Shown here piece by piece: positions 1,217-46,654 of a stretch of DNA of 64,000 nt. The stretch comes from an uncultured Paracoccaceae bacterium (GTDB lineage Bacteria > Pseudomonadota > Alphaproteobacteria > Rhodobacterales > Rhodobacteraceae). The notes beneath the pieces were generated by a model. The model was given only the letters and a program-made list of their open reading frames with translations, had not been told where the DNA came from and made no database searches. Every line of letters begins with the position of its first letter. The first letter of the stretch is position 1. A program made the translations under genes and the position numbers. Location: the NCBI GenBank assembly GCA_947499635.1, contig CANMPD010000003.1:1-64000 (forward strand), read 5' to 3'.

Positions 1217-1439
1217 TGATTGAGCCTGCTCAAATCTGGTGGAGTGCTGCGGATATCGCCGATGCGCGGTTGCCGGTTCGGGCGCGCCTAAAGCTGATTG
1301 AACCGCCAAAAGAGATGAAAGCCAAACGCAGCCGTGAGCAGGCATGGGCAGATTACGACCGCCTGACAGCAACAGGGAAATCCAAAGCTGAGATCCATTT
1401 AAAGGCGGTTCAACACGTCTTTGAATGTGAGGAGGCTGG
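1216..1439 (+). pseudogene. Mu transposase A fragment with an in-frame 43-codon deletion
   Basis: The N-terminus matches the intact transposase (MIEPAQIWWSAADIADARLP) and then jumps to VRARLKLIEPPKE. The 129 bp between two copies of GTTGCCGG (15250-15257 and 15379-15386 in the intact gene) are missing, leaving one copy at 1269-1276. This removes the basic winged-helix part of the DNA-binding domain. The coding match ends at 1439, where it is fused to the 3' end of gene G. All three catalytic residues are lost. Confidence 0.85.
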
Positions 1440-1521
1440 GGCAACATTCCAGCGCGTCCGTTTCTGGGTGTCTCAGATGCAGATCACAGCGCTATTGTTG
1501 AAGAAATTGAGGATTGGCTAA
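1437..1521 (+). pseudogene. 3' scrap of gene G (virion morphogenesis)
   Basis: Bases 1437 onward equal 30168 onward in the intact prophage. The join shares only TGG with the transposase side. The composite frame 1216-1521 reads the G DNA in a different frame from the intact gene, so no G peptide is made. The block is the 5' boundary of a 1238-bp perfectly collinear match that continues through the terminator and gene I. Confidence 0.75.
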
Positions 1522-1579
1522 GTGGTATAGATTGACGAGCGTTTAAAGCTTGCTCAAACTCTCTTTAACATCCCTGTAA

Positions 1580-1607
1580 AACGCCCCCACATCGTTTGGG
1601 GCGTTTT
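1580..1607 (+). terminator. Intrinsic terminator between G and I (left copy)
   Basis: AACGCCCC at 1580-1587 pairs with GGGGCGTT at 1598-1605 around a ten-base loop, followed by TTGCATTTT. The same hairpin sits at 30311-30338 in the intact prophage. Confidence 0.65.
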
Positions 1608-1636
1608 GCATTTTGTGGCTCTGCGATAGTGGTCGC

Positions 1637-2782
1637 ATGAGCAAAACAACAGCATATACCGCCATGATGGTCGCGCAGGATTTGCCCGAGGCAAGTGACG
1701 CGGGGCATGTTCCTGAATGGATACATCTTGCGCCCAAAGGAGCCATTGAGACCTTCGATGGGCGTGGTCCTTATGAAATCCAAGATCCGCAGGCGGTGAT
1801 TGAAGCCAGCTTTGCGGCGCGCGGTGAAATCGAAATTGATGTCAACCATGCAAGCTTCACTGCCGCCAAGGCTGGTGGCGAAGCGCCTGCGCGTGGCTGG
1901 ATTACGGAAATGCAATCACGCGATGACGGGATTTGGGGGCGTGTGCGCTGGACAGCCGTTGGCGAAAAGCTTGTTGCGGATCGCGCTTATCGCCGAATTT
2001 CCCCGGTGTTTCAGGTTGCATCCCCCGACAAACCCATCGTGACGGCCATTCTCAATGCTTCACTTGTGAACCGTCAAAACCTGCGCGGCTTGACTGCGCT
2101 TAATCATGAACAGGAGGAACCAATGGGTTTTCTTGGAAAACTCGTGGCCTATTTGGGTCTCGGCGCGGATGCGTCTGAGGACCAGATTATGGCTGCGATA
2201 AAGAAGATGAAAGGCGGGTCGGATACGGCCATTGCCGCGCAGTCTCAGCTTAATGAGGTTGCAACCGTTCTTGGCATTGATGCCGGTGGCGATGTGGTTG
2301 CGGCTGCGAAGACACATTCAGGCGGCGCGGCTGGTGTGGTTGCGATGCAGCAAGCGGTGGCCGAGCTGCAAGGGCTTGTGGCCCAGCAAAGCGAAACCAT
2401 CAACACGCTGACGGGCACGCAATCCAAGACTGCGGCTGCGACTTTTATTGATGGTGAAATCAAGAAAGGCCGAGTGATCCCTGCGGCATTGCGTGACCAT
2501 TACATCACCATGCATCAGGAAGACGCTGCGCGCGTTGAAAAAGAGATTTCCGCGATGCCCATGTTGAACAGCGCTGGCGTGGCCCATCTGACACCACCGT
2601 CTGCATCGTTTGGGGATGGCAGCGTGGCGATGCAGGCCGAGGACACTCAGGCGGCGCGTCTGCTTGGTTTAACCCAAGATGTGCGCGTTGAAGATGAGGT
2701 TGTTGAAGATGCAGCTTTGTTTGGGTTGCACCTCAGTCCTCTCGCGCTCAACCGGCCAGATCATTTGGGAGTTTGGCTCTGA
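1637..2782 (+). pseudogene. Chimera: Mu-like I protease/scaffold fused to tail-chaperone piece
   Basis: Starting at ATG 1637 the first ~345 codons are nearly identical to the intact I/Z gene (30368-31462), including the internal start at 2123 with its AGGAGG. At the hexamer TTAACC (2669-2674) the sequence switches to the downstream half of the tail-assembly chaperone gene (35539 onward). The chimeric frame closes at a TGA (2780-2782) created by a C-to-A change relative to the intact TGC. The protease domain could still be made, with a foreign C-terminal tail of about 36 residues in place of the scaffold's last residues. Confidence 0.75.
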
Positions 2783-2989
2783 AATGAAGCTGCAATGCGG
2801 GCTTTTCTGACAGTTCAAACACAGTGGCGCGCGCTGGCACAAGCTGACGGTAGCCGGTTCTGGGTTGGCTTGGATTACGGCGGCGTTGAACCAGCTTTGC
2901 GGCTGGCTGGGATGTGCCTCACACCGGACGACTGGTTTGGGGTTCAGATGATTGAACAGGCGGCGCGTGCCGCATTGAACGAGAGATAA
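2783..2989 (+). pseudogene. Remaining 3' part of tail-assembly chaperone (GT) gene
   Basis: This continues the chaperone frame after the nonsense codon at 2780-2782. An internal ATG at 2795 would give a 64-residue peptide matching the C-terminus of the 35527-35859 protein (AFLTVQTQWRALAQADGSRF and LTPDDWFGVQMIEQAARAA). It ends two bases before the tape-measure start, as in the intact copy. It is probably not functional. Confidence 0.65.
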
Positions 2990-2991
2990 AA

Positions 2992-5373
2992 ATGACGTTT
3001 ATCGTGAATGGTGAAATCTTGGTGGATGGCTCTGATGCCAAATCTGCGATTACGTCTTTGCGCGCCGAAAACGCCAAACTGGTTCAATCCGTTGACGGTG
3101 TGAACAAATCCACGACCGCGTGGCAACGCGGGGTGACAGAGGTGCGCACGCGTCTGGCCTCCGCGCGCAGCAGTGTGACCAATTGGGTTGCAGGCATAAA
3201 ACAGGTGGATGAAAGTCAAGCGCTTGCGGGCGGTAGCGTTGCTAACCTCACGGCTCAATTCAACGACATTGGTGTGATGTTGGCTGCGGGGCAAAACCCA
3301 CTGCAGTTGGCGATTCAGCAAGGTACGCAAATCACGCAAGTGTTCGGCAATCGCGGCGCGACTGCGGCTCTGGGCGGAATGCGGCAAGCTCTTGTCAGTA
3401 TGGTGTCGCCGCTGAATTTGATCACTATTGGGTCGATTGCAGCAGGTGCGGCAGCGGTGCAGTGGTTTTCACGTAGTTCGGACGAAGCCGAGAACTATGA
3501 GGATGTGCTTGAAGGTGTGGGCAATCAGGTTGAGCGCGTTCGGTCCCTATCCGAATTAAGCACGGCGGATATGGTCAAGCGCTGGGGAGAACTGACGCCA
3601 GAAGTGCGTAAGGTCTATGATGAGCTGAAAGCGTTAGAGCTGGATGCGCTCTTGCGCGATGCTGGGAACGCTGGCGACGAATTGGCCGAAAGCTTGGATA
3701 ATGGTTCGGTCTTAAGGGCGTTTTCGTCGGAATGGCAGCGTGTGCGTGATCATGGCTTTGATCCCGTGTTTGAGAGTATTTCAACGGCGTTGAAGGAAAT
3801 TGGCGATGCGGAGGGCGTCGACGCACAAATTAGAGCCGTGCAAGAGTTGCAGGCGCATCTCACCGACCTATCCGGTGGCGAGATGGATCTGGACCAAAAG
3901 GCAGCATATTCCCAAACCGTATTGCTCTTGGACAAGCTCTTTGAAGTGCGCGCGACTATTGAGGCAACCGGCGAAACAATTCGAGAGCAGTTGGGGGCGC
4001 AACGCGATCAGGCCGATGCAGCGGTTGAAGCCTATCAAACACATTTGAAAGACCTTGAAACCTCAAAGTCGATGCTGGCGCAATTGCAGTCTGAAGGCGA
4101 TATTCGACAGGCTGTTCTCAAATACGGCGAGGACAGCGTGCAGGTCGCAAACCTGCGCCTAACCGCTGCGGTACTGTCTTCGATCAGTGGTGTAAAGGAG
4201 ACGATCTTTAAGGGGGTGTTTCCATCAGGGTCGACAACAGCGCCGGGTATTGGCTTTGAAGAGGATCCCGACACGGGGTTTATGCGTTCTGGTACAAATC
4301 AAATTACCGGTGTGGCAGGTGGTAAGCGATCTATCATTTTTGGAGCGAACGGTTTTGAGCGCATAGGGATTGGCCTGCCTTCCAGTGAAGCCTTGGCGGC
4401 GTTGCACATCTCTGGCGATGATGTGGCCAGCGGTCGTCTGCGGGTTACACGCGATGGTGTTTCGGCAATTTTTGGAGTGACGGGGAATAATGCAGTCATT
4501 GATGCGCTTGGCACGGATGACGGCGACGGCGATGATGGCGGCATGTTGCTCTACACTGGCGGCCGTCTGACTGTAAGTGTGACTGCGGCGGGTGATCTTG
4601 GGATTGGTACGCAATCGTCTCCGTATAACAAGAGTAACCATACAGGAGGGGTATTCTATGATGGCGTTGGCAAATCTCTTAACATCGCCCGCCAAAACGC
4701 GACTCCTGTTTGGATTAATCGCACCGGAAATGATGGCGGCATAATTGGCCTGCAAAGTGCAGGTACCACGCAAGGAACGATCTGGGTTTCTGGATCTACG
4801 GTGAGCTACAACGGCGGACACCTGTCACGCTGGGGACAAACCAGCGACACGGGTATCTTGCGCGGGAGCATCCTGTCATCTCTGGATGAGATGTCACGTT
4901 GGCGATTTCTGTCTTATGAAACTCCCACCGGCCCGCAGCGTATAGAATATTTTGTCGATGCCGACGACGGGACCGAGATTGATATATCGGTTGTGGAAAC
5001 CGTTGATGGTGTCGTGGTTCTAAACAGCTACACAGCAAGTGTCGGCACAGAGGATAACGAACAGCTCACGCGCGTCGCCATGTCTGAAATGGCTGGCGAT
5101 AAGGCTGTGACAGGCGTGTTCGAGCGAATAGATGACAGTGATGAATACGGAGATGTTGTCGTGGCAATGAGCGGCGATTTCATCATTCGTATTCAGGCTG
5201 GGGCCACTGTAGCGCGTGGCGATCTGATCGAAAGTGCAGGGGACGGAACCGGGCGTGCTCAAGCGGACGACCTCGTGCGGTCATCCACCGTCGCCAAAGT
5301 CACCAGTGCTATTCCTTGCAGCACATATGCAGACGGATCTTACACCGTGCCTTGCCTGCTGATGTTGGGGTGA
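2992..5373 (+). CDS. Chimeric ORF: tape-measure N-terminus fused in frame to tail fibre
   Basis: This 793-aa open frame has two parts. Residues 1 to about 392 are tape-measure protein: MTFIVNGEILVDGSDAKSAI, then the coiled segment and a hydrophobic stretch around LNLITIGSIAAGAAAVQWF. After about residue 48 this part diverges from the intact prophage's tape measure. From about residue 393 (VLSSISGVKETIFKG) it is the tail-fibre protein of 43181-44647. The join is at TGCGGT (4167-4172), where both parents share six bases. The frame is preserved and has no stop, so a fusion could be translated if transcribed, but it lacks the rest of the tape measure. It is most likely a dead by-product. Confidence 0.7.
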   Translation: MTFIVNGEILVDGSDAKSAITSLRAENAKLVQSVDGVNKSTTAWQRGVTEVRTRLASARSSVTNWVAGIKQVDESQALAGGSVANLTAQFNDIGVMLAAGQNPLQLAIQQGTQITQVFGNRGATAALGGMRQALVSMVSPLNLITIGSIAAGAAAVQWFSRSSDEAENYEDVLEGVGNQVERVRSLSELSTADMVKRWGELTPEVRKVYDELKALELDALLRDAGNAGDELAESLDNGSVLRAFSSEWQRVRDHGFDPVFESISTALKEIGDAEGVDAQIRAVQELQAHLTDLSGGEMDLDQKAAYSQTVLLLDKLFEVRATIEATGETIREQLGAQRDQADAAVEAYQTHLKDLETSKSMLAQLQSEGDIRQAVLKYGEDSVQVANLRLTAAVLSSISGVKETIFKGVFPSGSTTAPGIGFEEDPDTGFMRSGTNQITGVAGGKRSIIFGANGFERIGIGLPSSEALAALHISGDDVASGRLRVTRDGVSAIFGVTGNNAVIDALGTDDGDGDDGGMLLYTGGRLTVSVTAAGDLGIGTQSSPYNKSNHTGGVFYDGVGKSLNIARQNATPVWINRTGNDGGIIGLQSAGTTQGTIWVSGSTVSYNGGHLSRWGQTSDTGILRGSILSSLDEMSRWRFLSYETPTGPQRIEYFVDADDGTEIDISVVETVDGVVVLNSYTASVGTEDNEQLTRVAMSEMAGDKAVTGVFERIDDSDEYGDVVVAMSGDFIIRIQAGATVARGDLIESAGDGTGRAQADDLVRSSTVAKVTSAIPCSTYADGSYTVPCLLMLG

Positions 5374-5421
5374 GAGAGCGATGAAGTCTTCCAACAACCA
5401 CTCTTCAAATAGGATTTAAAC

Positions 5422-5706
5422 ATGTCTCGATATCAGGAAATCATAACGGTACCGTCTGACAGCTACATTGAGTTGTCTAATGGGGATGTCTTTGGCGCAT
5501 TGGCCTTTGTGCCTTTGGATGGTGCGATTGAGGTGCGGCGCGGCGGGTCCACAGCCCCGAGCCAAGATAGCCGAGGCTGGCCCTATTCTACCAAGTTCGG
5601 CTTTCGCGGCACGCTTGCGGATGTGAGTTCTGACATAAGCGGCAACCGTTTATGGGGCCGCAGCCTGACCAACACAAATCAAGAGGTTTTGGTCGATCAT
5701 GCGTAA
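5422..5706 (+). CDS. Small tail-fibre-associated protein (left copy)
   Basis: This 94-aa protein (MSRYQEIITVPSDSYIELSN...) is nearly identical to the one at 44696-44980. The only visible residue change is a Ser/Pro difference in the GGSTAPSQ region. The coding end overlaps the start of the next gene by eight bases, as in the intact copy. Its position between two fibre genes suggests a fibre connector or tip component. I do not recognise a family. The gene is open, but no phage promoter can be identified upstream in this deleted copy. Confidence 0.65.
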   Translation: MSRYQEIITVPSDSYIELSNGDVFGALAFVPLDGAIEVRRGGSTAPSQDSRGWPYSTKFGFRGTLADVSSDISGNRLWGRSLTNTNQEVLVDHA

Positions 5707-7378
5707 TCCGTTTTTTCAAAATGTCAGTGTTGGATTGTCTGGGGCTGCGATATCGATCACGGCGCAGGCCGATGGTACGACGCGGGTGTATCATACAGAT
5801 CTTGTTGCAGTCCGGTATTCAACAGATGGCGGAGCGACGTGGTCTGACGCTTTGGCCGCGATCAATGGCGAAGCGATTTTACCGACCGCACCGGGGGATA
5901 ATATTCGGATCGATCCGGTGGGGTATCTGTCTTTTGTTGTCCCCAACAGCACATTGCCAATTGCCTTGGTGTTGATCAATTCCAACAGTCACGGCATTGG
6001 CCGCGTGGATGCTGAGGTGGGCGATGCCTTTGTGGAGGGCGCGACACAGTGGACGCAGGCGGCAACTCATGAGGCCATCAGTGGCGCGGTGCTGGATGTG
6101 AATGACACCAGCGGCAATTACGAGAGCACACATTTTAGCCCGATGGTGTCTTTTGCCGAAGCGGTGATGGCATCTGGCAAGTATGGCGGGATCTGCTTTG
6201 TGCCAGATGGCATGGGCGCAACGGGGTTCAGCGACGGTGTGTGGTCTCCTGATCCCGCGGATCATCCGAACCGGCTAACGGGGGCAGTGGAGCGCTGGAA
6301 CGCGGCGTATGCTGCGCTGGTGGCCGATGGCAACACAGTCCATCCGCTTTGTGCAATCTTTCTCAATGCCAATCCTGACGCGAGCCTTATTGGCGAAAGT
6401 GCTGATCCCAGCATTGCGACGATGTTCGCCTATACCAACGCGCAAGATGCATATGTTGACTATGTCCGGTCACATCTGGACGGCGTGGATGCGACATTTC
6501 CGGTTCTTGTGTCCAATGCAATGACCGAAGGGCAGATCGGCAGTAGCGCGTTATTCGAAGCGGCCTCTGCTATGGGAACATCAATCCAGCACCGCGTGGC
6601 GCATGCGCACAGCATATCTGTCATCTATGATCGTGGGGACGGGGAAGCGGAGAACCTGCCGATCACTCGATTTGACTCGTTCCATGCCGACCACGCAGGT
6701 GAATTGACCAAAGGGCGCTTGCTCTATGCGGCGCTGGATCGGGCAATTGCGAATGATGATCCACGCGCACCCTTCACCAGTTTGCCGTTTTATGATGATA
6801 TTGCGCGCCTCTATGATTACCGCAGCGGCTCCCTGCGCAATTGGATCACGAGGGCTGAGGATGATCTGACCGCCATCCAAAAAGCTGTCCTGCTGCGTCA
6901 CGATGAGGGCTTTGGCACAACAGCGCATGTTCGTCCCGCTGGCACAGGGCGGGTGCTCAAGTTCGGGGGGCTTGCTGCGCAATACACCATATCGCTGCGC
7001 TTACGACTGGACAGTGTGACGAAAACCGCAGGCCTTTGCATGAATGTTGGTATTGAACACCGCTTTTTCCTTCACTCATCTGGCAACATCCGTTGCGGTC
7101 ACAGCACGCCGCAGGAAATAGAGGTCGCGGGTGATTTGGTTGCGGGGCAGATCTATCAGCTGACGCTTACCTTTGATGGCACGACGATGACGCTCTACCG
7201 TGACGCGGTCGCGTTGGCCTCAGCTCCCGCCGCGCCGACACCGTCGGGGGAAATCGCAATCGGGGCCGGAGATTTGGTGGGGGCCAACGCGTTCACCGGT
7301 GACATGCAGTCTGTGCTCACTCTAGATCGCGCGCTCACCGCACCCGAAGTCGCAGCACTTGCGGGGCTGGAATATTAA
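5699..7378 (+). CDS. Tail-fibre protein with SGNH-esterase-like and LamG-like domains (left copy)
   Basis: This 559-aa protein is a same-length homologue of 44973-46652. An N-terminal beta region (about 1-95) leads to an esterase-like domain beginning at INSNSHGIG (candidate Ser block). That domain continues through a GGICFVPDGMGATGF segment to FDSFHADHAGE, where DSFH fits the catalytic DxxH of SGNH/sialate O-acetylesterase folds. Residues of about 400-559 form a concanavalin/LamG-like beta-sandwich (YTISLRLRLDSV, then YQLTLTFDGTTM). It differs from the other copy at scattered sites, several near the DxxH motif (TRFDSFHADHAG against NRFDLFHADRAG). It probably binds or trims host surface polysaccharide. 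It is intact and could serve as an alternative fibre. Confidence 0.65.
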   Translation: MRNPFFQNVSVGLSGAAISITAQADGTTRVYHTDLVAVRYSTDGGATWSDALAAINGEAILPTAPGDNIRIDPVGYLSFVVPNSTLPIALVLINSNSHGIGRVDAEVGDAFVEGATQWTQAATHEAISGAVLDVNDTSGNYESTHFSPMVSFAEAVMASGKYGGICFVPDGMGATGFSDGVWSPDPADHPNRLTGAVERWNAAYAALVADGNTVHPLCAIFLNANPDASLIGESADPSIATMFAYTNAQDAYVDYVRSHLDGVDATFPVLVSNAMTEGQIGSSALFEAASAMGTSIQHRVAHAHSISVIYDRGDGEAENLPITRFDSFHADHAGELTKGRLLYAALDRAIANDDPRAPFTSLPFYDDIARLYDYRSGSLRNWITRAEDDLTAIQKAVLLRHDEGFGTTAHVRPAGTGRVLKFGGLAAQYTISLRLRLDSVTKTAGLCMNVGIEHRFFLHSSGNIRCGHSTPQEIEVAGDLVAGQIYQLTLTFDGTTMTLYRDAVALASAPAAPTPSGEIAIGAGDLVGANAFTGDMQSVLTLDRALTAPEVAALAGLEY

Positions 7379-7380
7379 AC

Positions 7381-7398
7381 GCCCCTTTGAAGGGGGGC
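7381..7398 (+). terminator. GC hairpin after last fibre gene (left copy)
   Basis: GCCCC-TTTGAA-GGGG(GG)C is a strong short hairpin a few bases after the stop codon, but it has no clear T-run behind it. It is identical in the intact copy at 46655-46672. It may end the late transcript or protect its 3' end. Confidence 0.4.
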
Positions 7399-7446
7399 TT
7401 AAATACCCCTTTCAAACCCAACAGGCTAAAAACGCGTTGCTGTAAA

Positions 7447-7468
7447 AAAGTCTGTAATTCACTGCAAT
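7447..7468 (+). other. Truncated right phage end: one transposase site left
   Basis: AAAGTCTGT at 7447-7455 and the following bases to GCAAT at 7464-7468 equal 46721-46742 of the intact prophage apart from one base. The next two AAAGTCTGT units and the terminal CCCTACA of the intact end are absent. At 7469 the sequence switches to TGTAGGG, the candidate left end of the intact prophage. With only one of three sites, this end should not support transposition. Confidence 0.65.
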
Positions 7469-7498
7469 TGTAGGGAAACAAACTTATTTACAGTTATG
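7469..7498 (+). other. Candidate left terminal sequence of the intact prophage
   Basis: TGTAGGG is the exact reverse complement of CCCTACA at 46786-46792. It begins precisely where similarity to the phage right end stops. A TTACAG motif follows at 7488-7493, at nearly the same distance from the terminus as the first site inside the right end. Sites matching the full AAAGTCTGT repeat are only weak here (ACAAACTTA, ACAGTTATG), so this is tentative. Confidence 0.45.
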
Positions 7499-8163
7499 CC
7501 GGAAGGTACCTAAAGTTGCTGGAAGATTTCGGAACGTTAATAAAATAAGGGGGTTGGGCGACTGGAAGAGGCCAATAATGCAGCTTATGTTATGTTTTGC
7601 AGTAACGCCGTTAAACAGCTTATTCTGAGCTATTTAACGTAAGTGTGGGGCTTACAGGCCGTTTGGCCCCGGATGCACTAAAACCTCTTTTAAAATAGGC
7701 TTCAAACACATATTTTACCGCTTGTGAGTGCCAAATTTAAAGCTGTTTTTTGTTTCGGAACTGGGACCAAGGCCGTTTAGTTCGATGTTTAAGTCCCAGA
7801 TAGTGGTTCCTTTTTTATTATCATTTACTTAGCGGTTTTTTGTTTGCGGGATGTGTTTTTTAACTGGGACCTAGTTTTTATACTTTTGTTTTGGCGATTG
7901 AGGTCTCGTGCGAAGTTATTACTATACGAAGGGCGGATTCTGGACATTCGCTGCTGGCGCGAGACAGATATTGCGAAACTTCGGGAGCTGACTTCAAGTA
8001 ACGCTGCATATTACTCCTTCTCCGGAGTGCCGCCAATCAGCTGCGAGCCCAGAGTGACCATGCTGAGACAGAGCCGAATGACAGCTAGTTTTGCGGGAAA
8101 GGGATTTTCATGCACTTTCTCCTATTGGATAGGGTGCTGATGCCGGGTACCAGCTGATAAAAT
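7499..8163. other. Gene-free left-end region with inverted and direct repeats
   Basis: About 665 bp carries no convincing gene. A 98-codon open frame at 7844-8140 has no ribosome-binding site, poor composition and no recognisable domain. CTGGGAC at 7761-7767 is inverted as GTCCCAG at 7793-7799, flanked by GGAAC and GGTTCC, and then TTTTTTATTAT. This looks like an intrinsic terminator or the end of a small RNA. TTTTTTGTTT followed by AACTGGGACC occurs twice (around 7745-7768 and 7835-7872). AGGCCGTTT also occurs twice (around 7658 and 7770). It may hold transposase or regulatory sites. Confidence 0.5.
7757..7820 (+). terminator. Terminator-like stem-loop in the left-end region
   Basis: The stem CTGGGAC/GTCCCAG (7761-7767/7793-7799) can extend through GGAAC/GGTTCC. 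A T-tract starts at 7811. A reading out of the upstream remnant into the prophage would end here, or an undescribed short transcript would. Confidence 0.4.
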
Positions 8164-8922
8164 ATGAAGCGAAATTTATTCTCGCCTTTTAGTCGAAAGG
8201 TATACGTCTTGAAAAAAATATTAATGTGCGTCGTTCTCAATCTATCTCTGACGTTTGCCGTGTTTGGCCAAACTACGTTAGATGAGGACGCCGAGCTGCC
8301 GCGTTTGGAAAACCGTGTTAGGTTAACCGAGAACGCTGTTGAGCTACTTAGTCAGGATCTAGGCAAAGTTCGGACGGAATTTCGACAACTTGAACTCGAC
8401 GTTGCACGATTAGATGCTTTGAAAGTTGACGTAGAGGCCATCAAGCGAGAACTGTCGGCGTCGTTGATGGATATTTCGAATGTTCTTGCCGTCGCCGATA
8501 TGAACCTAAATGCAGCCAATACTACTCTCCAAGCCGCAGAGGCGGCAATTTCAAGCTCTCAATTGTACCTAGAAATTTCAGCTATATTGGTAACGATTTT
8601 GGCTTTGACAGCTTCCATTGCAACATGGCGCATGACACAGAATATTGTCAATCGAACAGCCCAGCAGCTCGTGATAAAGCTGAAGTCAAACGGAAAAAAT
8701 GGACAAAACAGTATCATTGAAGAAATAAAAAATTCGGTCCAAAATGAATTATATCAGGATGCCGTTGATAATATATCATTTGTAATGCAAGATGATTCGT
8801 TTCGCGATAAGCTAGGAGAGCTTATCGACAAAGCAGTTGAAAGTAAGTGCCGCGGGTTGGCCGAAAACGAGCAGCCTAAAGGTAACATGGGACCACTGAA
8901 TTTCGACGAGGAAGGACAATAG
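8164..8922 (+). CDS. Coiled-coil membrane protein, unknown function (cargo)
   Basis: This encodes 252 aa from ATG 8164. A hydrophobic segment at about 18-35 (ILMCVVLNLSLTFAVFG) looks like a signal peptide ending near FGQT. TTG 8209 or ATG 8224 are alternative starts that would give a more usual signal. Residues of about 45-130 are a heptad-like coiled coil (LENRVRLTENAVELLSQDL...). Residues 137-157 are one transmembrane helix (LEISAILVTILALTASIATW), and the rest is a charged, probably cytoplasmic tail with no cysteine pair. The gene is 12 bp ahead of an ImmA/IrrE peptidase on the same strand, so the two are likely one operon. AT-richer DNA than the phage core suggests cargo. No family is recognised. 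A sensor or target for the peptidase is an inference only. Confidence 0.6.
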   Translation: MKRNLFSPFSRKVYVLKKILMCVVLNLSLTFAVFGQTTLDEDAELPRLENRVRLTENAVELLSQDLGKVRTEFRQLELDVARLDALKVDVEAIKRELSASLMDISNVLAVADMNLNAANTTLQAAEAAISSSQLYLEISAILVTILALTASIATWRMTQNIVNRTAQQLVIKLKSNGKNGQNSIIEEIKNSVQNELYQDAVDNISFVMQDDSFRDKLGELIDKAVESKCRGLAENEQPKGNMGPLNFDEEGQ

Positions 8923-8934
8923 GAGGGAGCTAAG

Positions 8935-9507
8935 ATGAGGGAAACACTTAAACAATATGCTCACGTTCGCAACGCGAGCGAACTACTTAGTTTGACCGGT
9001 CTCGACATGGCCCCGATCAACCTTACTGAGTTGGTACGCATACTTGACGTTGAAGTATCATACGACTTCGATTTTGACAGGATGGGCTACTCCGGAAGAA
9101 TCTCCTGGACAAAGGCTCGTGATACTGCAGAAATTTGGATCAACCCAATGGACGGTGAAAATCGACAACGTTTCACGCTAAGCCACGAACTCGGCCATTT
9201 GTTTCGGCACATGCTCCCAGATTATGAAGATGCAGAATGGGCCGAGGGATTTAGCGACAAACCTATCCAGTTTAATCGTGACGGAACGGCATCTTCTGTT
9301 GAGACCGAGGCGAACAAGTTTGCCGCACAACTTCTTATGCCAAGTCATTTAATACGGCATCATGCTAGTGAGCTTGCTGGTGAACACCGTAATTCAAACG
9401 GCAAGATTGGTTTATCAAGGGAAACCTTCATAACTCGGATGGCGGGCACTTTTGCTGTATCCAGTAAAGCGATGGAAATCCGCCTTAGAAATCTTAGGGT
9501 TATTTAA
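8935..9507 (+). CDS. ImmA/IrrE-family metallo-endopeptidase
   Basis: This 190-aa protein is close to the usual size of short ImmA-like peptidases. The zinc site is HELGHLFRH at about residues 84-92 (HExxH), with the downstream ETEANKFAAQLLMP segment supplying the third ligand Glu. This arrangement is typical of the family (PF06114). A strong AGGAGGGA precedes the ATG. In ICEBs1, ImmA cleaves the ImmR repressor; IrrE/PprI cleaves DdrO. Here the only repressor nearby is the S24-type one 3 kb away, while the immediate partner is the coiled-coil membrane protein, so the substrate is unknown. It is likely a regulated protease in a cargo or immunity module. Confidence 0.85.
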   Translation: MRETLKQYAHVRNASELLSLTGLDMAPINLTELVRILDVEVSYDFDFDRMGYSGRISWTKARDTAEIWINPMDGENRQRFTLSHELGHLFRHMLPDYEDAEWAEGFSDKPIQFNRDGTASSVETEANKFAAQLLMPSHLIRHHASELAGEHRNSNGKIGLSRETFITRMAGTFAVSSKAMEIRLRNLRVI

Positions 9508-9665
9508 CATCCTCATGGCACTCGCTCCAGCGTGTTCTCCATGAGCTTGGGAAATCAACTTGATCGGGCGAGATGCTGGGGTGCGGATTGCTGATTTGCG
9601 CGGCACTTTACACAAATGTCTGCCATGCGCAGATAGTGGCCCCCTAGGGCGTAACCGGAACGAGG

Positions 9666-10679
9666 TTATCGCGCGGCGGCGTCTCTTATCTGCAATTCGA
9701 CCACCTTCGTTTTAATGCCGGTGTAGGCGTAAAGTGATCGCGCCAACCGCGCTGCTCCTTTGTCACAAGTAATAAAAACTGGGCAGCGTGCGGCGTTCTC
9801 GATGTGAACCCCGTCACGGAACTGCCCTCGAAAATACTGCATCCGGCTTTCGGTATTGCCTTTCTTAACGCGCCGGTCTCTAACCAGCCCACACATAAAT
9901 AGCATGAATGCCAACCCGGCAATTTCGCCAGTCTTGCGTCTCTCTGGGTTACTCCAGAAACCTTGCGGATACTGGCTCTGAACGGCTTCCCTATCTCGAT
10001 CCTCAAGGCAGGAGAGCACGAAGGAAACAGCCTTTTCGTCTGGAACTTCATCCAATTGCGCGTAGTTTGCGGGAAGGCGTTCCTTCAATTTAATCCAAGC
10101 AGTTTCCCATTCGTCGCGGAACTGCTCGAAAGACATGCTCTCTATGAGTGTGCCCATCTCGCCCTCAGCTGCTGACAGTGCATGTTTCGCTTGTCCTCCC
10201 AGTTCCGACCCAAGGACATCCCAATCGACATCACGTTGAATGGTTTCCCAGAAGTTCGCCATCGCGGCCGCCATCTCAGCTTTCAGCTTTTGTGCCTCGG
10301 TCTTACCCAACCATCCGCTGGCGAAATGCACTACGTGGAGCAAATTCTCTATCGACCGTTTTGCGTGATGGGTCGTGTCCTCCGGTTCCAACAACAACTC
10401 CCGCGCCCTCCCCAGTGACAGGGTGGATTGCTGATCGCCGGCATTCTCGAACTCCATCAAATACACAGGCAACTCCTCCATGACCGCAACAAACTGTTCC
10501 GGCTGGGAGGAGGCACGGCATTCATCGACGTGTGTCATGGAGAATACAAAGACAGCGTTCCTCTCTTGCAGCTTACTCAGCACTCCAACCAGTTCTTCTT
10601 TGGCGCTCTTACCTTCGCGTAGGTGGCTAAGGATGTTTTGGTCTATGTAGACGGATGTAGGGTCGTTGGGGGAATTCAT
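9666..10679 (-). CDS. PIN-like nuclease domain protein (cargo)
   Basis: This encodes 337 aa from ATG 10679; the frame stays open further upstream, but MNSPNDPTSVYIDQNIL is the natural start. The N-terminus has hydrophobic strand-Asp (VYIDQNILSHL) and a second acidic motif in MTHVDECRAS. The C-terminus has VFITCDKGAARLARSL, matching the last Asp strand of PIN folds, so an acidic metal site can be built. The middle 200 residues are mostly helical and unlike short VapC toxins. No antitoxin-like partner lies directly beside it. It is read leftward, in the same direction as the repressor and GIY-YIG genes. A PIN-type RNase acting in phage defence or as a toxin is likely but unproven. Confidence 0.6.
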   Translation of the reverse strand: MNSPNDPTSVYIDQNILSHLREGKSAKEELVGVLSKLQERNAVFVFSMTHVDECRASSQPEQFVAVMEELPVYLMEFENAGDQQSTLSLGRARELLLEPEDTTHHAKRSIENLLHVVHFASGWLGKTEAQKLKAEMAAAMANFWETIQRDVDWDVLGSELGGQAKHALSAAEGEMGTLIESMSFEQFRDEWETAWIKLKERLPANYAQLDEVPDEKAVSFVLSCLEDRDREAVQSQYPQGFWSNPERRKTGEIAGLAFMLFMCGLVRDRRVKKGNTESRMQYFRGQFRDGVHIENAARCPVFITCDKGAARLARSLYAYTGIKTKVVELQIRDAAAR

Positions 10680-10982
10680 GTCAGAATCCAACTCAGGATA
10701 AATAATATTCGATGGAATTTGATATACCAGAAGGGCCGACGTTTTGCGGAAAGGAAAATACCAATTAGGGCCGCTGCTTTGGGCTACAAGCGTTCGATTG
10801 ACACGTTTCGCATGCCCTCCGGACAACTAAAATGTTGCACAACGTGTCGAATGGCTGGTTCGATGAAGCTGAAACCAGAATCTGTCCAGTCGCCGAACGG
10901 CAGCTATGGACCGTAGTTGAAAAGTTAGATTTAAATCAACCACTATCGGATTGGATTCTGCATGTGGCGCAAACTATCCAGG
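10680..10982. other. Gene-free spacer with an 8-bp inverted repeat
   Basis: About 300 bp has no supportable gene. GACACGTT at 10800-10807 is perfectly inverted as AACGTGTC at 10841-10848. The promoter of the PIN-like gene is presumably here (AT-rich stretch 10700-10725). No further features are seen. Confidence 0.4.
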
Positions 10983-12470
10983 TCAAATGTCATCGGCGAA
11001 AACAACCTCAGCCCGCTGTAACCTACTTTGAAGCTCTTTGCGTTTTGCGAGGGTTTCAAAGAACTCTTGAGCTTCGATATCAGTGTGAAAATCAGCATTT
11101 GGGGCAAGCCTTCTCACAGCGTCTTCAACTTCTGAAACAGAAGCCGAGAAAAATTCTTTGCGCATATTGGCTGCGTTAACACGCCGATCTTCGAACTCTT
11201 TGTGAAGGGCGCTTTCCAGAGCAGGGGCATCATCGGAGTAGATCATTGCGTGGGTGTCGAAGAGAAACGGTACTGACGCATCGCCCAGTTCTTTTACACG
11301 GTCCATTGGGTCTAGTCGCCGCGTCATGCCAATTTTAACGATGTCCTCACCAAAAGAGCCAATGTTGGAAATAACATAAACGAAACCTGTTTTGGTTTTC
11401 TCTGCTAAGGCTTGAGCGCGCTCAGTACGACTGTGTGCTTGTGCGAGTTGCGTTTCTAGTTCTTCGATCTTGGCGCGGTGTGTCTCTGGGTCATCGGCCC
11501 CAACTTCGGCTCGTGCCTGTGCGAGCATGGCCTCATAGCGTTCTTCCTCTTTCAACGCGGCCACGGCCTCTTTTTGCAAGCGCTTTTCATCTCGTTCTTG
11601 GCGAGCGATTTCAGCGCGCTCATCTCTTTCGGTTTTTAGCCGCTCACGATATTCATGTGTGAGGCGGAGTTCCTTCAACTTTGCCTTAAAGTATTTATCT
11701 GTAATAGAAACCAGTATGCTCTTGTTCAGATTGTCGACGGCTGATCGGGCGCGTTCGATGCGTTTTTCAATCGCAACCACATTGTTCCATTTTACAGATG
11801 CAATAGCGGCATCACACTCGTTGTTGAATGCGCGCAAGGTAAGTTTGATGGCGCGGTTCGCCATGGTTTTCCCTTTGGCAGCGCTCCCGTCGACCGTCCA
11901 GTTTTGTGCGCAAAGGACCGCACTTTCGCCTTTGACGAGTGCTTTTTGATCATTTCGAATTTCCGTAATAGCGGCTTTATAGGCATCACTATCCGCAAAG
12001 TCGAAATGTGGTTCGTATACACCCAGCTCGGCAAGTGCGAGGCGACTGTCGTAGATCGCGACCTCTTTTTTTAACTTGTCTAAAAGTTTCTTTTTTTCGC
12101 GGTATGATGCGCGAGTTTGGGAAACTTTGTCTGTGATTTCAGTAAGTTCATTTTCGCCTTGGGTGATTTTTTGATCAATGTCTTGTATAGGCTTGTAAGG
12201 AGCTAGCACCTTTTCATGATCACGTGTTAGCTGCTCGATTGCATCCACGTGTTCTTTCTTGAGGTCTCGGATTTTCTCATTGAAAGTCTGTTTGTCATCC
12301 AAATAATCTTTTTTTAATAGTTTGTACTGTGTACGCCTAACCAGAAGCGTGAGGAATTGCAAAGTAGCGAGTGCGGTAAGGGCCAACATTATATCAGGTT
12401 CTTGTGGCAGGTTGGGAGCTGCCCATTTGGCAATGCTGATCTCGATATTTTTAATTAATTCTTCGAGCAT
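10983..12470 (-). CDS. DUF4041/GIY-YIG (T5orf172-type) nuclease-family protein
   Basis: This encodes 495 aa. Residues of about 25-45 are hydrophobic (IMLALTALATLQFLTLLV) and may anchor it in the membrane. A long coiled coil runs from about 50 to 145. A DUF4041-like region (GVYEPHFDFADSDAYK, then KALVKGESAV) is followed by another coiled coil rich in RDERAE/QERDEK. The C-terminal domain (GFVYVISN, VKIGMTRR, LHKEFEDRRVN) is a T5orf172-type GIY-YIG fold. The gene starts 31 bp after the repressor stop on the same strand, so it is probably co-transcribed with the repressor and made in lysogens. That suggests a role in superinfection exclusion or defence, which is an inference. Confidence 0.75.
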   Translation of the reverse strand: MLEELIKNIEISIAKWAAPNLPQEPDIMLALTALATLQFLTLLVRRTQYKLLKKDYLDDKQTFNEKIRDLKKEHVDAIEQLTRDHEKVLAPYKPIQDIDQKITQGENELTEITDKVSQTRASYREKKKLLDKLKKEVAIYDSRLALAELGVYEPHFDFADSDAYKAAITEIRNDQKALVKGESAVLCAQNWTVDGSAAKGKTMANRAIKLTLRAFNNECDAAIASVKWNNVVAIEKRIERARSAVDNLNKSILVSITDKYFKAKLKELRLTHEYRERLKTERDERAEIARQERDEKRLQKEAVAALKEEERYEAMLAQARAEVGADDPETHRAKIEELETQLAQAHSRTERAQALAEKTKTGFVYVISNIGSFGEDIVKIGMTRRLDPMDRVKELGDASVPFLFDTHAMIYSDDAPALESALHKEFEDRRVNAANMRKEFFSASVSEVEDAVRRLAPNADFHTDIEAQEFFETLAKRKELQSRLQRAEVVFADDI

Positions 12471-12501
12471 TCTAATCTCCTTACCGGAGAGTCAGCAAAC
12501 G

Positions 12502-13146
12502 CTACCACTCGTGCATTGACGCGACCACGCGGCCGACAACATGGACGCCATCGGCTTCTGGCGTGGTTATTTCAATCGGTGAATATAGCGCGTTGCTGCT
12601 GACGAGTCTGACGGTATCTCCGGGAATATACTGTATGAGTTTCACGAATAGGTTGTTTGAGTACTGTACGGCGTAGATCTTGCCGTCTGCAAGTGTTGTG
12701 TCCGCGCGATCAATCAAAATTAGATCGCCATCGTTGAGATCAGGTTCCATGCTGTCACCGCGCACAGAGATGACCGACAGGTGATTTGGAGCAAGGCCGC
12801 GTTTTGTGAGCCATTTGCGGCTAAACGCGTAGCTTTGGGTTTCACTTTCGCTTTCGACCGCAGTGCCATTTCCAGCGGATGCTTCGACTGCGAGGCGCGG
12901 CACGTTTATGAATTCGTTAGTTGTGTCCGCATTCGAGGGCGGTTTGCTTGTCTCACCGAGTAGCCAATTCATATCAATGGCCAGAGATTGGGATAATATA
13001 GATAGAAACTCGTGATCGGCTCGCTGTGCGCCTATCTCTATTTTCTGTATTTTACTTTCAGCGACCCCCAAAAGTTCTCCAAAAGCACGCCTTGAAAGCC
13101 CTTCTCGTTCGCGAACTTGACCTATTTTTTCTTTAAAATCAGTCAT
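12502..13146 (-). CDS. Phage repressor, XRE HTH plus S24 LexA-like peptidase
   Basis: This 214-aa protein has an N-terminal helix-turn-helix (residues about 8-62: IGQVREREGLSRRAFGELLG, then ESKIQKIE) joined to a C-terminal S24 domain. The catalytic Ser lies in VRGDSMEPDL and the Lys in FVKLIQ. This is the arrangement of CI/LexA-type repressors that self-cleave with RecA, so induction by DNA damage is expected. It is the functional equivalent of Mu c but of a different class. It is divergent from the 13254 gene across a 107-bp operator region, and it leads the leftward unit that includes the GIY-YIG gene. GC content and position fit a lysogeny control gene. Confidence 0.85.
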   Translation of the reverse strand: MTDFKEKIGQVREREGLSRRAFGELLGVAESKIQKIEIGAQRADHEFLSILSQSLAIDMNWLLGETSKPPSNADTTNEFINVPRLAVEASAGNGTAVESESETQSYAFSRKWLTKRGLAPNHLSVISVRGDSMEPDLNDGDLILIDRADTTLADGKIYAVQYSNNLFVKLIQYIPGDTVRLVSSNALYSPIEITTPEADGVHVVGRVVASMHEW

Positions 13147-13253: not shown

Positions 13254-13541
13254 ATGCCAAAAAAAACAAAGACGTACCAGCCCGGAGCAATCTTGCACGA
13301 AGTGATTGTGGGGGCGTTTCGGTCTGCGGGCACCAGCTTTGAGGCTTGGTGTAAGGAAAATGACGTTCACCCCAGCACTGCGAGGCAGGCGACCTATGGC
13401 CAATCTGGCGGAGTGCGTGGTGGGTCGCTGCTGCGGCGCATTATTGAATCGGCGGGCGAGGATCTGGTTGCGGCTGGATACGCCAAGCGTGTGGTCGCCG
13501 AAGCCGACCGCGTGTCAGGGCGCGCAGCAGCAACGCAATAG
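13254..13541 (+). CDS. Small early DNA-binding regulator in the ner position
   Basis: This 95-aa basic protein (MPKKTKTYQPGAILHEVIVG...) contains a helix-turn-helix-like stretch (SFEAWCKENDVHPSTARQATYG). It is the first rightward gene opposite the repressor, which is where Mu carries ner. It is therefore likely to repress or switch early transcription. Homology to Ner itself is not evident. An in-frame AAATQ tail precedes the stop, followed by the inverted-repeat leader at 13551. Confidence 0.55.
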   Translation: MPKKTKTYQPGAILHEVIVGAFRSAGTSFEAWCKENDVHPSTARQATYGQSGGVRGGSLLRRIIESAGEDLVAAGYAKRVVAEADRVSGRAAATQ

Positions 13542-14342: not shown

Positions 14343-15197
14343 ATGTCAGCAACGATCATTCAATCCATTACTGAATTGGCGGTAGAGGCCATAGGTTTCG
14401 GCAATCGCTTGCGGCCTGTTTCTGAGGCAGGGGTTGCGGCGATCAAAGCGTCCATTCAGGAACTCGGCGTGATGAAGGACGCGATTCATGTTCGCAAGCT
14501 CAAGAAAACCGGAGACTTCGTTCTGATCGCAGGCGGTCATCGCCTGACCGCAGCGCGTGAACTGGGTTGGGAAACCATCGCAGTGGTCTGTTGGGAGTGT
14601 TCTAACGACTTTGCCAGCTTGATGGAATGTGACGATAATCTTGCCGGGGCAGATTTGACGCCACTGGATACAGCGGTGTTTCTGGCAGAGCGTAAGCGGG
14701 TTTATGAAAAACTGCATCCTGAGGCGAAGCAGGGTGGTGATCGCAAAAGCGAGAAGTTTCAAACGGACACGATGTCCGTTTGGTCTTTTGCAAGTTCGAC
14801 CGCAGAAAAATTCGGCGTATCTGAGCGCCATGTACGACGGATGGTCAGCGCAGGCGAGATGTTACAAAGCATTGATGCGCAACGTCTGCGTGCCTCGGAC
14901 CGTCCGATCACGCTGAATGATCTAACCGAACTCGCCAAGATCGGCGAACACGACGAGCGGTCGCGCGTTGTGGATCTGCTTGCTGAGGGCAAAGTCAAAA
15001 GCGCCAAGGATGCGCGCCGTACTTACGCCAGCGAGAACAATCGCGGCGTGATGCCCCCGATGAACAACACCGAAAAGACTTGGACCCGTTTGCTGGATGC
15101 GTGGGATCGCGCGCCCAAAGCGGCGCGGCGCATATTTTTTGAGGAACGCGGTGATGAAGTTCAGGCGTTTTTGAATGAGATGCGGGGCGACGACTGA
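14343..15197 (+). CDS. ParB-like nuclease-domain protein
   Basis: This encodes 284 aa from ATG 14343, chosen over TTG 14337 because AAGGGGAG ends seven bases before it. The N-terminal ParB/Srx-like domain spans about 10-95 with GGHR at 64-67 (the conserved G-x-x-R box). A helix-turn-helix follows (STAEKFGVSERHVRRM, about 140-156) and then a helical C-terminus. It directly precedes the transposase with an ATGA overlap, so the two are translationally coupled. A ParB-like gene ahead of A is a feature of several alphaproteobacterial Mu-like phages. A role in transposition control or early regulation is inferred; there is no parA. Confidence 0.75.
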   Translation: MSATIIQSITELAVEAIGFGNRLRPVSEAGVAAIKASIQELGVMKDAIHVRKLKKTGDFVLIAGGHRLTAARELGWETIAVVCWECSNDFASLMECDDNLAGADLTPLDTAVFLAERKRVYEKLHPEAKQGGDRKSEKFQTDTMSVWSFASSTAEKFGVSERHVRRMVSAGEMLQSIDAQRLRASDRPITLNDLTELAKIGEHDERSRVVDLLAEGKVKSAKDARRTYASENNRGVMPPMNNTEKTWTRLLDAWDRAPKAARRIFFEERGDEVQAFLNEMRGDD

Positions 15198-17299
15198 TGA
15201 TTGAGCCTGCTCAAATCTGGTGGAGTGCTGCGGATATCGCCGATGCGCGGTTGCCGGATATGCCGACCACTAAACGCAAGGTGAATGAGCGGGCCAAAGC
15301 TGAGGGCTGGGACCGCCAGCCAGATAAAATCCGCCGCCGCAAAGGCAGAGGTGGCGGATTGGAATATCATTATTCTTTGTTGCCGGTTCGGGCGCGGCTC
15401 AAGCTGATTGAGCCCCCTAAAGAGGTGACAGCCAAACGCAGCCGCGAACAGGCATGGGCAGATTACGACCGCCTGACAGCAACAGGGAAATCGAAGGCCG
15501 AGATCCATTTAAAGGCGGTTCAACACGTCTTTGAATGTGTGGGGGCTGGCATGCCACGTTCTGCTGCGGTGGCGGCTGTGTCGATGAAAGTCGGCGTTTC
15601 GCAAAAATCAATTTGGAACTGGTTGACCATGGTGGTTGGAGTCTCAGCTGAGGACTGGCTGGCCTATGTCGCCCCTCGACCAACAGGTGCGCGGGGTAGG
15701 GCCAAGCCCGTTGATCCTGCGTTCTTTGCTTTGGTGCGCGACGATTATTTGCGTCTTGAGCAACCGTCTATGACGTCTTGCTATGATCGGGCAAAGCGGA
15801 TTGCTGCGAAAGAGGGAATTGAGGTTGCGCCTCTGCACCAGTTGCGCCGCCGTTACAAAGAGCTGGTGTCCAAGCCGACTGAGGTATTCATGCGCAAAGG
15901 TGCGCAGGCGTTGCGGCAGTATTATCCGCATCAGGAGCGCGACAAGAGCGCTCTGAGTGCTTTGGAATGTATTTGCGGAGATTACCACAAATTTGACGTG
16001 TTTGTGCGCTGGCCGGGTGAAGAGCAGCCGGTGCGTGTTCAAGGCGTGTTTTTCTCTGATATTTATTCCGGCAAGATCTTGTCTTGGCGCTTATCCCTGA
16101 CCGCAAATAGCCACACGGTTTTGTTGTGTGTTGGCGATCTGATCGAACGGTATGGTATCCCAAAAGCAGTGTTGCTTGATAACGGTCGCGAGTTCGCAGC
16201 CAAGGTGCTGACGGGCGGCGCGAAAACGCGGTTCCGCTATACGATCAAAGATGACGACATTCCGGGCCTGTTCCCGATGTTGGGCGTCAATATCCATTGG
16301 GCGACGCCGTATTCAGGGCAGTCAAAGCCGATTGAACGTGCCTTTCGCGATCTGTGTGATCGTGTCGCCAAACATCCGGCGTTTGAGGGAGCCTATACGG
16401 GGAATAAACCCGATGCCAAGCCTGAGAATTATGGCAATAGCGCGGTGCCTCTTGAGGACTTCATTGCGGTCCTGACCGAAGAAATTGCAGATCACAATGC
16501 CCGCGAAGGTCGCCGTAGCGAGATCGCCTATGGCCGCTCGTTTAATCAGGTCTTTGAAGCTTCGTATAAAACCGCGCGTATTCGTAAAGCGACCGAGGAA
16601 CAGCGCCGCCTGTGGCTCATGAGCGCTGAGGGGCTGACCGCCAGCGCGAAAAACGGTGAACTCAGCGTGCTGGGATCACGGTATTGGGCGGAATGGGGGC
16701 ATCGTATTGCCGGGCAAAAGGTTGTGGGTCGCTTTGACCCGGATAATCTACATGCTGGCCTGCATGTTTATGAATTGGACGGTCAATATGTGGGCCACAT
16801 GCCCTGCGTTAAAAAGGGTGATTTCTTGGGCGTTGGCGATGCGAACGAGCTCGCTCGCAAGAAACGTCAATTCATGCGCACAATCAAAGAACAAGCACGG
16901 GCACAGCGCGAGCTTTCCGCTAGTGAATTGGCGGCACAGCTGCGCGCGACTGGCATGGATACTGAGAATTTGCCTGACGCGGACATCGTTGAACTGGTGC
17001 CACTGCATAAAAATGCACCGAAGCCAGATCAGGTAAAGCGGCCGCAAATTGCGGGGCCGGATGCTGCGACTGAGGAAGAGCTCGAAGCGAAAATTACTAT
17101 TCTCGCCAATCACCGCAGCGCGGAGATTGAAGATGATCCCGAAGAGCGGTTCGACCGTCTGCGGGAGTTGGAAGCGATGGATGCCAATGGCGACCCGCTA
17201 ACCCAAGAACAGCGCAGGTTCATGCGCGAATACCCAAAATCAGCCGAGTATCAGGGTTATTTGCAGATGCAAAAAGCGCTCGGCGGCAGTGACGACTAG
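15197..17299 (+). CDS. Mu-type DDE transposase (A)
   Basis: This encodes 700 aa (MuA is 663). The N-terminal region (1-150) carries the winged-helix and end-binding helices, including a basic stretch KIRRRKGRGGG. The rve/DDE core has Asp262 (CICGDYHKFDVF), Asp328 (AVLLDNGREFA) and Glu380 (GQSKPIERAF), which line up with MuA D269, D336 and E392. The C-terminal Mu-transposase domain and an acidic, Lys/Arg-rich tail follow, the latter for contact with B or ClpX in the known system. It pairs the phage ends and joins them to target DNA. The gene is complete, so the prophage could still transpose. Its expected sites are the AAAGTCTGT repeats at the right end. Confidence 0.92.
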   Translation: MIEPAQIWWSAADIADARLPDMPTTKRKVNERAKAEGWDRQPDKIRRRKGRGGGLEYHYSLLPVRARLKLIEPPKEVTAKRSREQAWADYDRLTATGKSKAEIHLKAVQHVFECVGAGMPRSAAVAAVSMKVGVSQKSIWNWLTMVVGVSAEDWLAYVAPRPTGARGRAKPVDPAFFALVRDDYLRLEQPSMTSCYDRAKRIAAKEGIEVAPLHQLRRRYKELVSKPTEVFMRKGAQALRQYYPHQERDKSALSALECICGDYHKFDVFVRWPGEEQPVRVQGVFFSDIYSGKILSWRLSLTANSHTVLLCVGDLIERYGIPKAVLLDNGREFAAKVLTGGAKTRFRYTIKDDDIPGLFPMLGVNIHWATPYSGQSKPIERAFRDLCDRVAKHPAFEGAYTGNKPDAKPENYGNSAVPLEDFIAVLTEEIADHNAREGRRSEIAYGRSFNQVFEASYKTARIRKATEEQRRLWLMSAEGLTASAKNGELSVLGSRYWAEWGHRIAGQKVVGRFDPDNLHAGLHVYELDGQYVGHMPCVKKGDFLGVGDANELARKKRQFMRTIKEQARAQRELSASELAAQLRATGMDTENLPDADIVELVPLHKNAPKPDQVKRPQIAGPDAATEEELEAKITILANHRSAEIEDDPEERFDRLRELEAMDANGDPLTQEQRRFMREYPKSAEYQGYLQMQKALGGSDD

Positions 17300-46652: not shown

Positions 46653-46654
46653 AC

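Follow-up and report, generated by a model that had tools for sequence, protein, structure and literature searches.

Accessory genes, including a SNIPE homolog, in an interchangeable slot of Mu-like prophages from one alphaproteobacterial family

The first 64 kb of contig C3 (CANMPD010000003.1) from an uncultured Paracoccaceae bacterium, the window to which all prophage positions refer, contain a Mu-like prophage with four genes, here called A to D, between its left end and its repressor gene c. We consider it quite probable that this block is an accessory (lysogenic-conversion) slot of Mu-like phages in which gene D, a homolog of the phage defense protein SNIPE by its sequence, probably acts in the lysogen, and in which A-B and C are separate units. 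This reading draws directly on the anatomy of the prophage, the family membership of D and its kept catalytic residue, the interchangeability of the slot, and the close codirectional spacing of c and D. The original prediction had proposed that the same four genes form one possibly new module that protects the host or excludes related phages. The protective role has gained support from the SNIPE homology of D and from other named systems in the slots of relatives; the single new module has not, because D is known, the strands differ, and none of 289 loci holds relatives of two block genes. The four open reading frames (ORFs) are present as described, judged from ORF coordinates and Pfam domains, and the statement that Mu itself has no such block before c agrees with section 3.5 of PMC5977238.

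7469 to 46760, plus strand: Mu-like prophage, TGTAGGG...GCTACA, 39,292 bp (GCAAT repeats and a repeat breakpoint at 7468)
7469 to 8163, no strand assigned: left phage end and a stretch without an assigned gene (blastn of 7469 to 7700)
8164 to 8922, plus strand: gene A, 252 amino acids (aa), with a signal-peptide-like start, a coiled coil (by eye), a transmembrane (TM) segment, and a helical tail (ORF, hydropathy)
8935 to 9507, plus strand: gene B, 190 aa, stand-alone M78 (ImmA/IrrE) peptidase with the motif HELGH (PF06114, 2.2e-13)
9666 to 10679, minus strand: gene C, 337 aa, likely PIN-like (acidic positions kept in homologs)
10983 to 12470, minus strand: gene D, 495 aa, with a TM segment, DUF4041, and GIY-YIG (PADLOC PD-Lambda-1 and Pfam)
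12502 to 13146, minus strand: repressor c, with helix-turn-helix (HTH) and S24 domains, the right border of the slot (Peptidase_S24, 5.4e-22, and HTH, Pfam)

Gene D and the SNIPE family

Our confidence in a defense function is high for gene D. The PADLOC PD-Lambda-1 profile PDLC03977 covers residues 29 to 485 of its 495 residues (E = 9.6e-161), Pfam recognizes DUF4041 (PF13250, 5.3e-19, residues 209 to 264) and T5orf172 (PF10544, 4.1e-18), and an N-terminal TM segment is indicated by a hydropathy of 1.91 at residue 26; such a segment occurs in 59% of SNIPE homologs according to the relevant part of PMC13190303. D is 43% identical to a 500-aa protein annotated PD-lambda-1 in phage PhiR26_1 (PV340555), and that protein has the residue given in the SNIPE paper at nine of nine named positions checked, E414 included. 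E419 of D aligns with this E414 and is invariant in six aligned DUF4041 proteins. All the sequence-level marks of SNIPE are thus found in D, namely the profile, the N-terminal TM segment, DUF4041, and GIY-YIG with the catalytic Glu. On these grounds D is a SNIPE/PD-lambda-1 homolog with the catalytic Glu kept, and belongs to a known system, not a new one. The former name, PD-lambda-1, reportedly goes back to an earlier screen by Vassallo in 2022. A second SNIPE homolog, about 58% identical, lies in the same genome on contig C21 (L053:7997-9343), among transporter-like genes. A scan of viral contigs with D alone returned no relative.

Gene D starts 31 bp downstream of c on the same strand, and for that reason it is probably expressed in the lysogen together with the repressor. 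In a lysogen of the Pseudomonas Mu-like phage Fc02, the repressor transcript includes the downstream accessory gene e4, as one section of PMC9936078 reports. Comparable orders occur around other DUF4041 genes: phage phiS10 has the repressor, a small gene, the DUF4041 gene, and an integrase, and PLE3 has a regulator, a metalloprotease, two genes, and the DUF4041 gene, then continues toward the integrase. The PLE3 metalloprotease was not matched by B (1e-5). Counts of promoter-like and of terminator-like sequences (8 and 12, respectively) were close to those expected from shuffling (6.1, standard deviation [SD] 2.3, and 8.1, SD 3.1).

The passages of PMC13190303 (Saxton et al.) that describe SNIPE itself place it in the inner membrane and report that it depends on DUF4041 and on the Glu of the nuclease, that it cuts the DNA of lambda as the phage injects it, that it is active on diverse siphoviruses, and that an induced lambda prophage remains unaffected. 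Reasoning from these properties, we infer expression, activity, and targets for D as follows. D would be read out with the repressor in the lysogen, and its N-terminal TM segment would anchor it in the inner membrane; through DUF4041 it may bind both the injection machinery and the phage DNA coming in, and its GIY-YIG domain would then cut that DNA on entry. D could in this way exclude other tailed phages, siphoviruses first, and leave the resident prophage unharmed when it is induced. Part of PMC5488378 describes siphovirus-like tails for two cultured relatives, vB_ThpS-P1 and vB_PeaS-P1. A natural SNIPE in a lysogen makes testable the idea that a prophage can carry an injection-stage nuclease without self-harm.

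An interchangeable slot between left end and repressor

The 5-bp repeat GCAAT lies at 7464 to 7468 and at 46761 to 46765, the second copy right behind the prophage terminus GCTACA (46760), and self-comparison finds a shared 3.3-kb segment (4167 to 7468 and 43441 to 46742, 96%) that breaks exactly at 7468. The candidate left end at 7469 is therefore correct. A MuA-type transposase and a 5-bp target duplication mark the element as a Mu-like transposable phage. Because this segment from the right side of the prophage ends precisely at 7468, we read the target as the right end of an older, deleted copy, into which the present prophage inserted.

641 to 7468, plus strand: what is left of a related Mu-like prophage after internal deletion, here called the remnant (five pieces matching the prophage at 90 to 99%, self-comparison)
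13254 to 13541, plus strand: Ner-like gene (named from its position; kept in relatives)
15197 to 17299, plus strand: MuA-type transposase (PF02914, 1.4e-48)

Near the remnant, an exact 21-bp piece of gene D (11191 to 11211) recurs at 89 to 109, to the left of where the remnant matches the prophage, which would fit a SNIPE-like gene in the older copy as well. Small genes that look lipoprotein-like by eye lie near the remnant's left (209 to 541) and near the repressor in two relatives (L033:7551-7928 and L056:6593-7045), and it is possible that they encode exclusion lipoproteins. Shortly right of the prophage, 47404 to 60000 looks, by gene names and protein starts only, like the start of the mraZ/dcw cell-division cluster.

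Relatives with a MuA 70 to 73% identical were found at 10 loci in viral contigs and in 4 of 17 other genomes of the genus, L057 and G684:C207, and likewise L059 and G293:C71, probably being the same contigs seen twice. Four loci correspond to genomes (L033 to G293, L057 to G684, L356 to G680, and L357 to G686), and L084 is the cultured phage vB_ThpS-P1. The left end was located in the window and in six relatives (L356, L357, L033, L055, L056, and L057), which have parts of its first ~140 bp in common (blastn, 7469 to 7700). Nucleotide homology resumes at the repressor in all of these six except L357, which has no match to c or ner, and it starts at 12495 to 12504 in seven of nine loci compared, the others being L357 and L084. 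The Ner-like gene is 63 to 81% identical in L356, L033, L055, L056, L057, L061, and L064. In the window and in the five relatives in which both borders are recognized, the slot measures 5 to 8 kb and its contents differ each time; relatives of A, B, C, or D were found in none of the nine compared relatives and in none of 33 Mu-like loci (tblastn, 1e-5).

The neighbor comparison suggested by the original prediction turned up other defense genes at the same place. We scanned with PADLOC 22 larger proteins from six slots (window, L356, L033, L055, L056, and L057) and six proteins from L061, L064, and L084, leaving out small ORFs, such as the lipoprotein-like genes, and the slot of L357. The L033 slot encodes a 1,288-aa PD-Lambda-4_A protein (E = 0 over residues 7 to 1288), the L356 slot encodes bSEFIR (1.3e-99) and PifA (2.5e-259), and the L057 slot encodes an FRG protein that matches PDC-S15 (8.2e-24), by its label a candidate family. 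bSEFIR, PifA, and PD-lambda-4 are experimentally supported defense systems. Near-full-length named systems are thus present in three of six slots (SNIPE in the window, L033, and L356), a candidate in one, and nothing specific in two; the six proteins of L061, L064, and L084, in which the left border is missing or unmatched, gave no PADLOC match. As a control, 29 chosen ORFs of the prophage backbone in the window matched DNA-methyltransferase families (best, 7.4e-65) and, more weakly and each in one ORF, PD-Lambda-5_B (1.3e-16), TnsC (1.2e-4), and LeoBC (1.5e-4); apart from these, the 29 ORFs held no named system such as those in the slots. The region has the features of a defense hotspot, with fixed borders (left end and c) in the window and five relatives, exchanged contents, and several named systems. 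Support for defense cargo in this interchangeable slot is good.

Several observations weigh against the favored account of slot and D as a whole. The larger proteins of the L055 and L056 slots gave no specific PADLOC defense match, a metallo-hydrolase of L055 having two weak ones (about 2e-4), and the L055 slot carries metabolic and regulatory genes. A second PD-lambda-4 gene was not recognized among the three L033 proteins scanned, and the backbone control includes a methyltransferase, a class that PADLOC counts among defense families. Eight neighborhoods of gene C homologs, two of them at contig ends, show C solitary among housekeeping-looking genes (ORF maps, by eye), which is part of what the original prediction had named as evidence against itself. 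We surveyed the best 80 viral-contig loci among the SNIPE matches listed, with their 80 SNIPE ORFs collapsed to 60 distinct ones; a codirectional XRE-like ORF lay within 2.5 kb upstream in 13 of the 60 (a crude model built on nine seed sequences), and none of the best 80 loci had a MuA-like match, so the repressor-SNIPE arrangement is not typical of SNIPE. An alternative is that the phage picked up neutral host DNA here and that the block has no phage-related role. Its GC content of 0.45 to 0.54, lower than the roughly 0.52 to 0.57 of the phage backbone to its right, and the metabolic genes in some slots (L055) would fit this, yet near-full-length named defense systems in half of the scanned slots make it improbable.

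Genes A, B, and C as separate units

A and B are transcribed rightward and c, D, and C leftward, with intergenic gaps of 31 bp between c and D, 303 bp between D and C, and 12 bp between A and B. A co-occurrence check of 289 fetched loci (tblastn, 1e-5; flanks mostly 4 to 10 kb) found no locus in which relatives of two or more of the four genes occur together. The different strands and this absence of co-occurrence speak for several units, and we rejected the idea of one four-gene module. A-B and C, and not D, are the candidates for something new in the block.

Gene A has hydropathy maxima at residues 15 and 134, with the TM segment near 134. Its one match in 294 other genomes of the family is marginal (E = 9.9e-4) and falls in a membrane-fusion-protein-like gene, and it had no match in plasmids (1e-5) or phages (0.01). 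Identification as the Thoeris inhibitor Tad5 or as DruC was rejected, with E values of only 0.065 and 0.04, respectively. The peptidase B has an intact active site, H84, E85, H88, and E123 being invariant in a five-row alignment (A1). No HTH match was found in A or B, and the gene directly upstream of B is A, so that B as an ImmA with a fused or adjacent HTH partner was also set aside.

We surveyed 160 M78 loci, collapsed to 152 nonredundant ones (two of the 160, without an ORF, had been left out of an earlier count), and assigned TM and XRE classes by hydropathy and a regular expression. The gene directly upstream of the peptidase encodes a TM protein in 52, an XRE protein in 43, and another protein in 41, and is missing in 16; the TM share is biased upward, since the survey seed A1 consisted of five TM-type peptidases only, two of them with Beta. 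A Beta-family gene lies directly downstream in 20 of the 52 TM pairs vs none of the 43 XRE pairs. At the 10 loci nearest B, the upstream gene encodes a small membrane protein in seven, an XRE protein in one, and another protein in two. With B alone as query, matches at 1e-10 came from 7 of 384 other genomes of the class; three of these have a TM protein upstream and three an HTH protein, and in one no such partner was seen. A profile of ten TM partners does not recognize A (E = 1.2; three of 300 shuffled copies did better), and phmmer of A against the 52 TM partners gave no match, which led us to reject A as their sequence homolog. A-B resembles, as an analogy of layout only, a pair of TM protein and M78 peptidase for which we found no name in the open-license PMC literature. 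Three-gene sets of TM protein, M78 peptidase, and Beta-family protein occur at L099:399-2406 and L100:1118-3021 (Beta called by PADLOC) and also at L163, L168, L171, and L184 (Beta called by similarity), and these sets look like an unnamed defense or toxin unit. No Beta-family match was found among the block's own four proteins by Pfam or PADLOC.

In the favored account, A would be a membrane protein probably controlled by the stand-alone peptidase B, in a unit of the abortive or exclusion type beside D, and two more specific proposals bear on this. One, which we hold tentatively, is a toxin-antitoxin-like abortive pair in which the membrane effector A is checked or released by B, as P4 Gop is by Beta. 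The product of P4 gop is a short hydrophobic membrane protein with a polar tail; parts of PMC9122126 report that Gop is toxic without Beta and that gop-beta-cII protects against lambda and P1, and PD-lambda-2, as described in part of PMC9519451, has two partners, a fusion of Xre and peptidase that is toxic by itself and a protein related to a P4 antitoxin. The 12-bp spacing of A and B, the TM proteins upstream of 52 M78 genes, of seven of the ten nearest B, and of three of the seven found with B alone, and the Beta genes behind 20 TM pairs but no XRE pair agree with such a pair. Against it stand the missing Beta gene beside A-B, the failure of profile and phmmer to connect A with TM partners, the inflation of the TM share by the seed, and the class assignment by hydropathy and a regular expression, with 41 loci in neither class and 16 lacking an upstream ORF. 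Somewhat less probable, and in our view doubtful, is that B is a lysogeny regulator which cleaves c or a related regulator in the manner of ImmA-ImmR, with A sensing envelope stress or phage adsorption and signaling to B. In favor of it, HTH partners are frequent among M78 peptidases (43 of 152), B keeps its zinc ligands, and the product of A combines a TM segment with a coiled coil and a signal-peptide-like start; but c has its own S24 autoprotease domain, B has no HTH fused or adjacent, and relatives whose c is 56 to 69% identical have neither A nor B.

Gene C had been described as encoding a PIN-like protein. Its ORF is present and has 386 aa, but the three near-full-length homologs found first align only from residue 57 to 59, and its likely start is therefore the Met at 10679, giving 337 aa. 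The PIN label keeps part of its support: in alignment A3, the Asp of Y-x-D and the following Glu are kept in six of six covering rows, and Asp289 and Asp306 are kept in seven of seven. The Pfam PIN profile matched one of seven members of the C family (E = 0.031), C itself was not matched significantly, and PDB sequence searches with C gave chance-level matches only. A PIN-like protein remains the likely assignment from the conserved acidic positions. Homologs occur in 8 of 294 other genomes of the family, none beside relatives of A, B, or D and one within an apparent ribosomal protein cluster (by eye). C had no match in phages (0.01), plasmids (1e-5), or viral contigs, though its homolog L075 matched a plasmid once, weakly, in Alteromonas (22.7%, 2e-5). 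A viral-contig scan with A4 found no relative. A class-wide search with the C alignment returned its own genome only (1 of 289). The kept acidic residues and the solitary occurrences argue for a solitary PIN-type nuclease, either a single-gene defense or a leftover toxin, whereas the poor PIN and PDB matches and the near absence from mobile elements argue against one; we rate this proposal a little short of an even chance. C would then stand beside D in the slot as a single PIN-like nuclease.

Right-end stacking and comparison with known systems

Wherever the left end could be located (seven of seven prophages), it is preceded, at a distance of 0 to 28 bp, by the right end of a related copy in the same orientation. 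The positions concerned are as follows.

Window: 7387 to 7500 and 46661 to 46800
L356: 4051 to 4190
L357 (reverse): 1191 to 1280
L033: 3 to 60
L055: 205 to 345
L056: 351 to 465
L057: 1115 to 1210

The break in the older right end falls at the identical place in the window and in L057, and L055 shows what we read as a trace of an earlier event at that place. Matching 5-bp repeats flank the prophage of G680 (ACAAA on both sides) but not that of G686 (CATAC and AACAG), and the fetched stretches for G293 and G684 (L361 and L362) contained no right end. In phage Ab30, according to part of PMC5977238, 0.4% of insertions fall into its own copies, the left end being hit hardly at all; the right end is described there as unclear owing to an artefact, so the contrast with Ab30 is only partial.

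Two further observations concern this group of phages. In three more distant Mu-like prophages (L034:4818-6081, L035, and L049), two genes for proteins of about 206 and 200 aa recur together beside the regulatory region. Both L034 copies had no PADLOC match, nor had one protein of L041, another of the more distant loci. An ORF that looks by eye like a C5-methyltransferase (L356:3123-4043) stands directly before a right end, the site at which Mu has its DNA modification gene mom.

Taken together, the Mu-like phages of one alphaproteobacterial family would have a slot filled with interchangeable, often antiphage genes, and they gain a defense hotspot with defined borders, the left end and the repressor, as a place to look for new systems. 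More speculatively, and on balance doubtfully, the slot may be a rotating defense cassette, right-end stacking could let neighbors trade cassettes, and A-B may be an outlying member of a widespread system without a name, in which a stand-alone ImmA/IrrE peptidase controls a membrane effector that has an outer sensor part, in a layout like that of P4 Gop-Beta. With the association of TM protein, M78 peptidase, and Beta, it becomes possible to test what stand-alone ImmA/IrrE peptidases do in prophages.

Compared with SNIPE, D has the same TM segment, DUF4041, GIY-YIG, and catalytic Glu and a profile match over most of its length (residues 29 to 485), but it resides on a Mu-like phage directly downstream of the repressor, and its N-terminal region differs. 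The P4 gop-beta-cII and PD-lambda-2 systems join a membrane protein or a peptidase to a Beta partner, parts that the TM-M78-Beta relatives combine, whereas A-B has no Beta gene and A is likened to Gop by layout, not by sequence. B shares the M78 peptidase with ImmR-ImmA (HTH plus M78) pairs, but its partner is a membrane protein and not an HTH regulator. The main text of PMC9519451 does not contain the spellings pd-lambda-4 or pd-lambda-1. The defense hotspots of P2 and P4, in the portions of PMC9122126 and PMC9519451 that describe them, likewise swap defense genes at a single fixed site in a phage family, whereas the slot described here belongs to transposable phages, with the transposition left end on one side and the repressor on the other; the words Mu-like and transposable do not occur in the main text of PMC9122126, and PMC9519451 has Mu-like once, as a type of carrier prophage. 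The plasticity regions of Pseudomonas Mu-like phages (parts of PMC4378225) and e4 of Fc02 (part of PMC9936078) are likewise accessory parts of Mu-like phages with long flexible tails; like D, e4 follows the repressor, and the Fc02 lysogen transcribes it. The Pseudomonas regions, as far as those sections describe them, contain short ORFs, whereas the slot here spans 5 to 8 kb and in some members holds large or multigene named systems.

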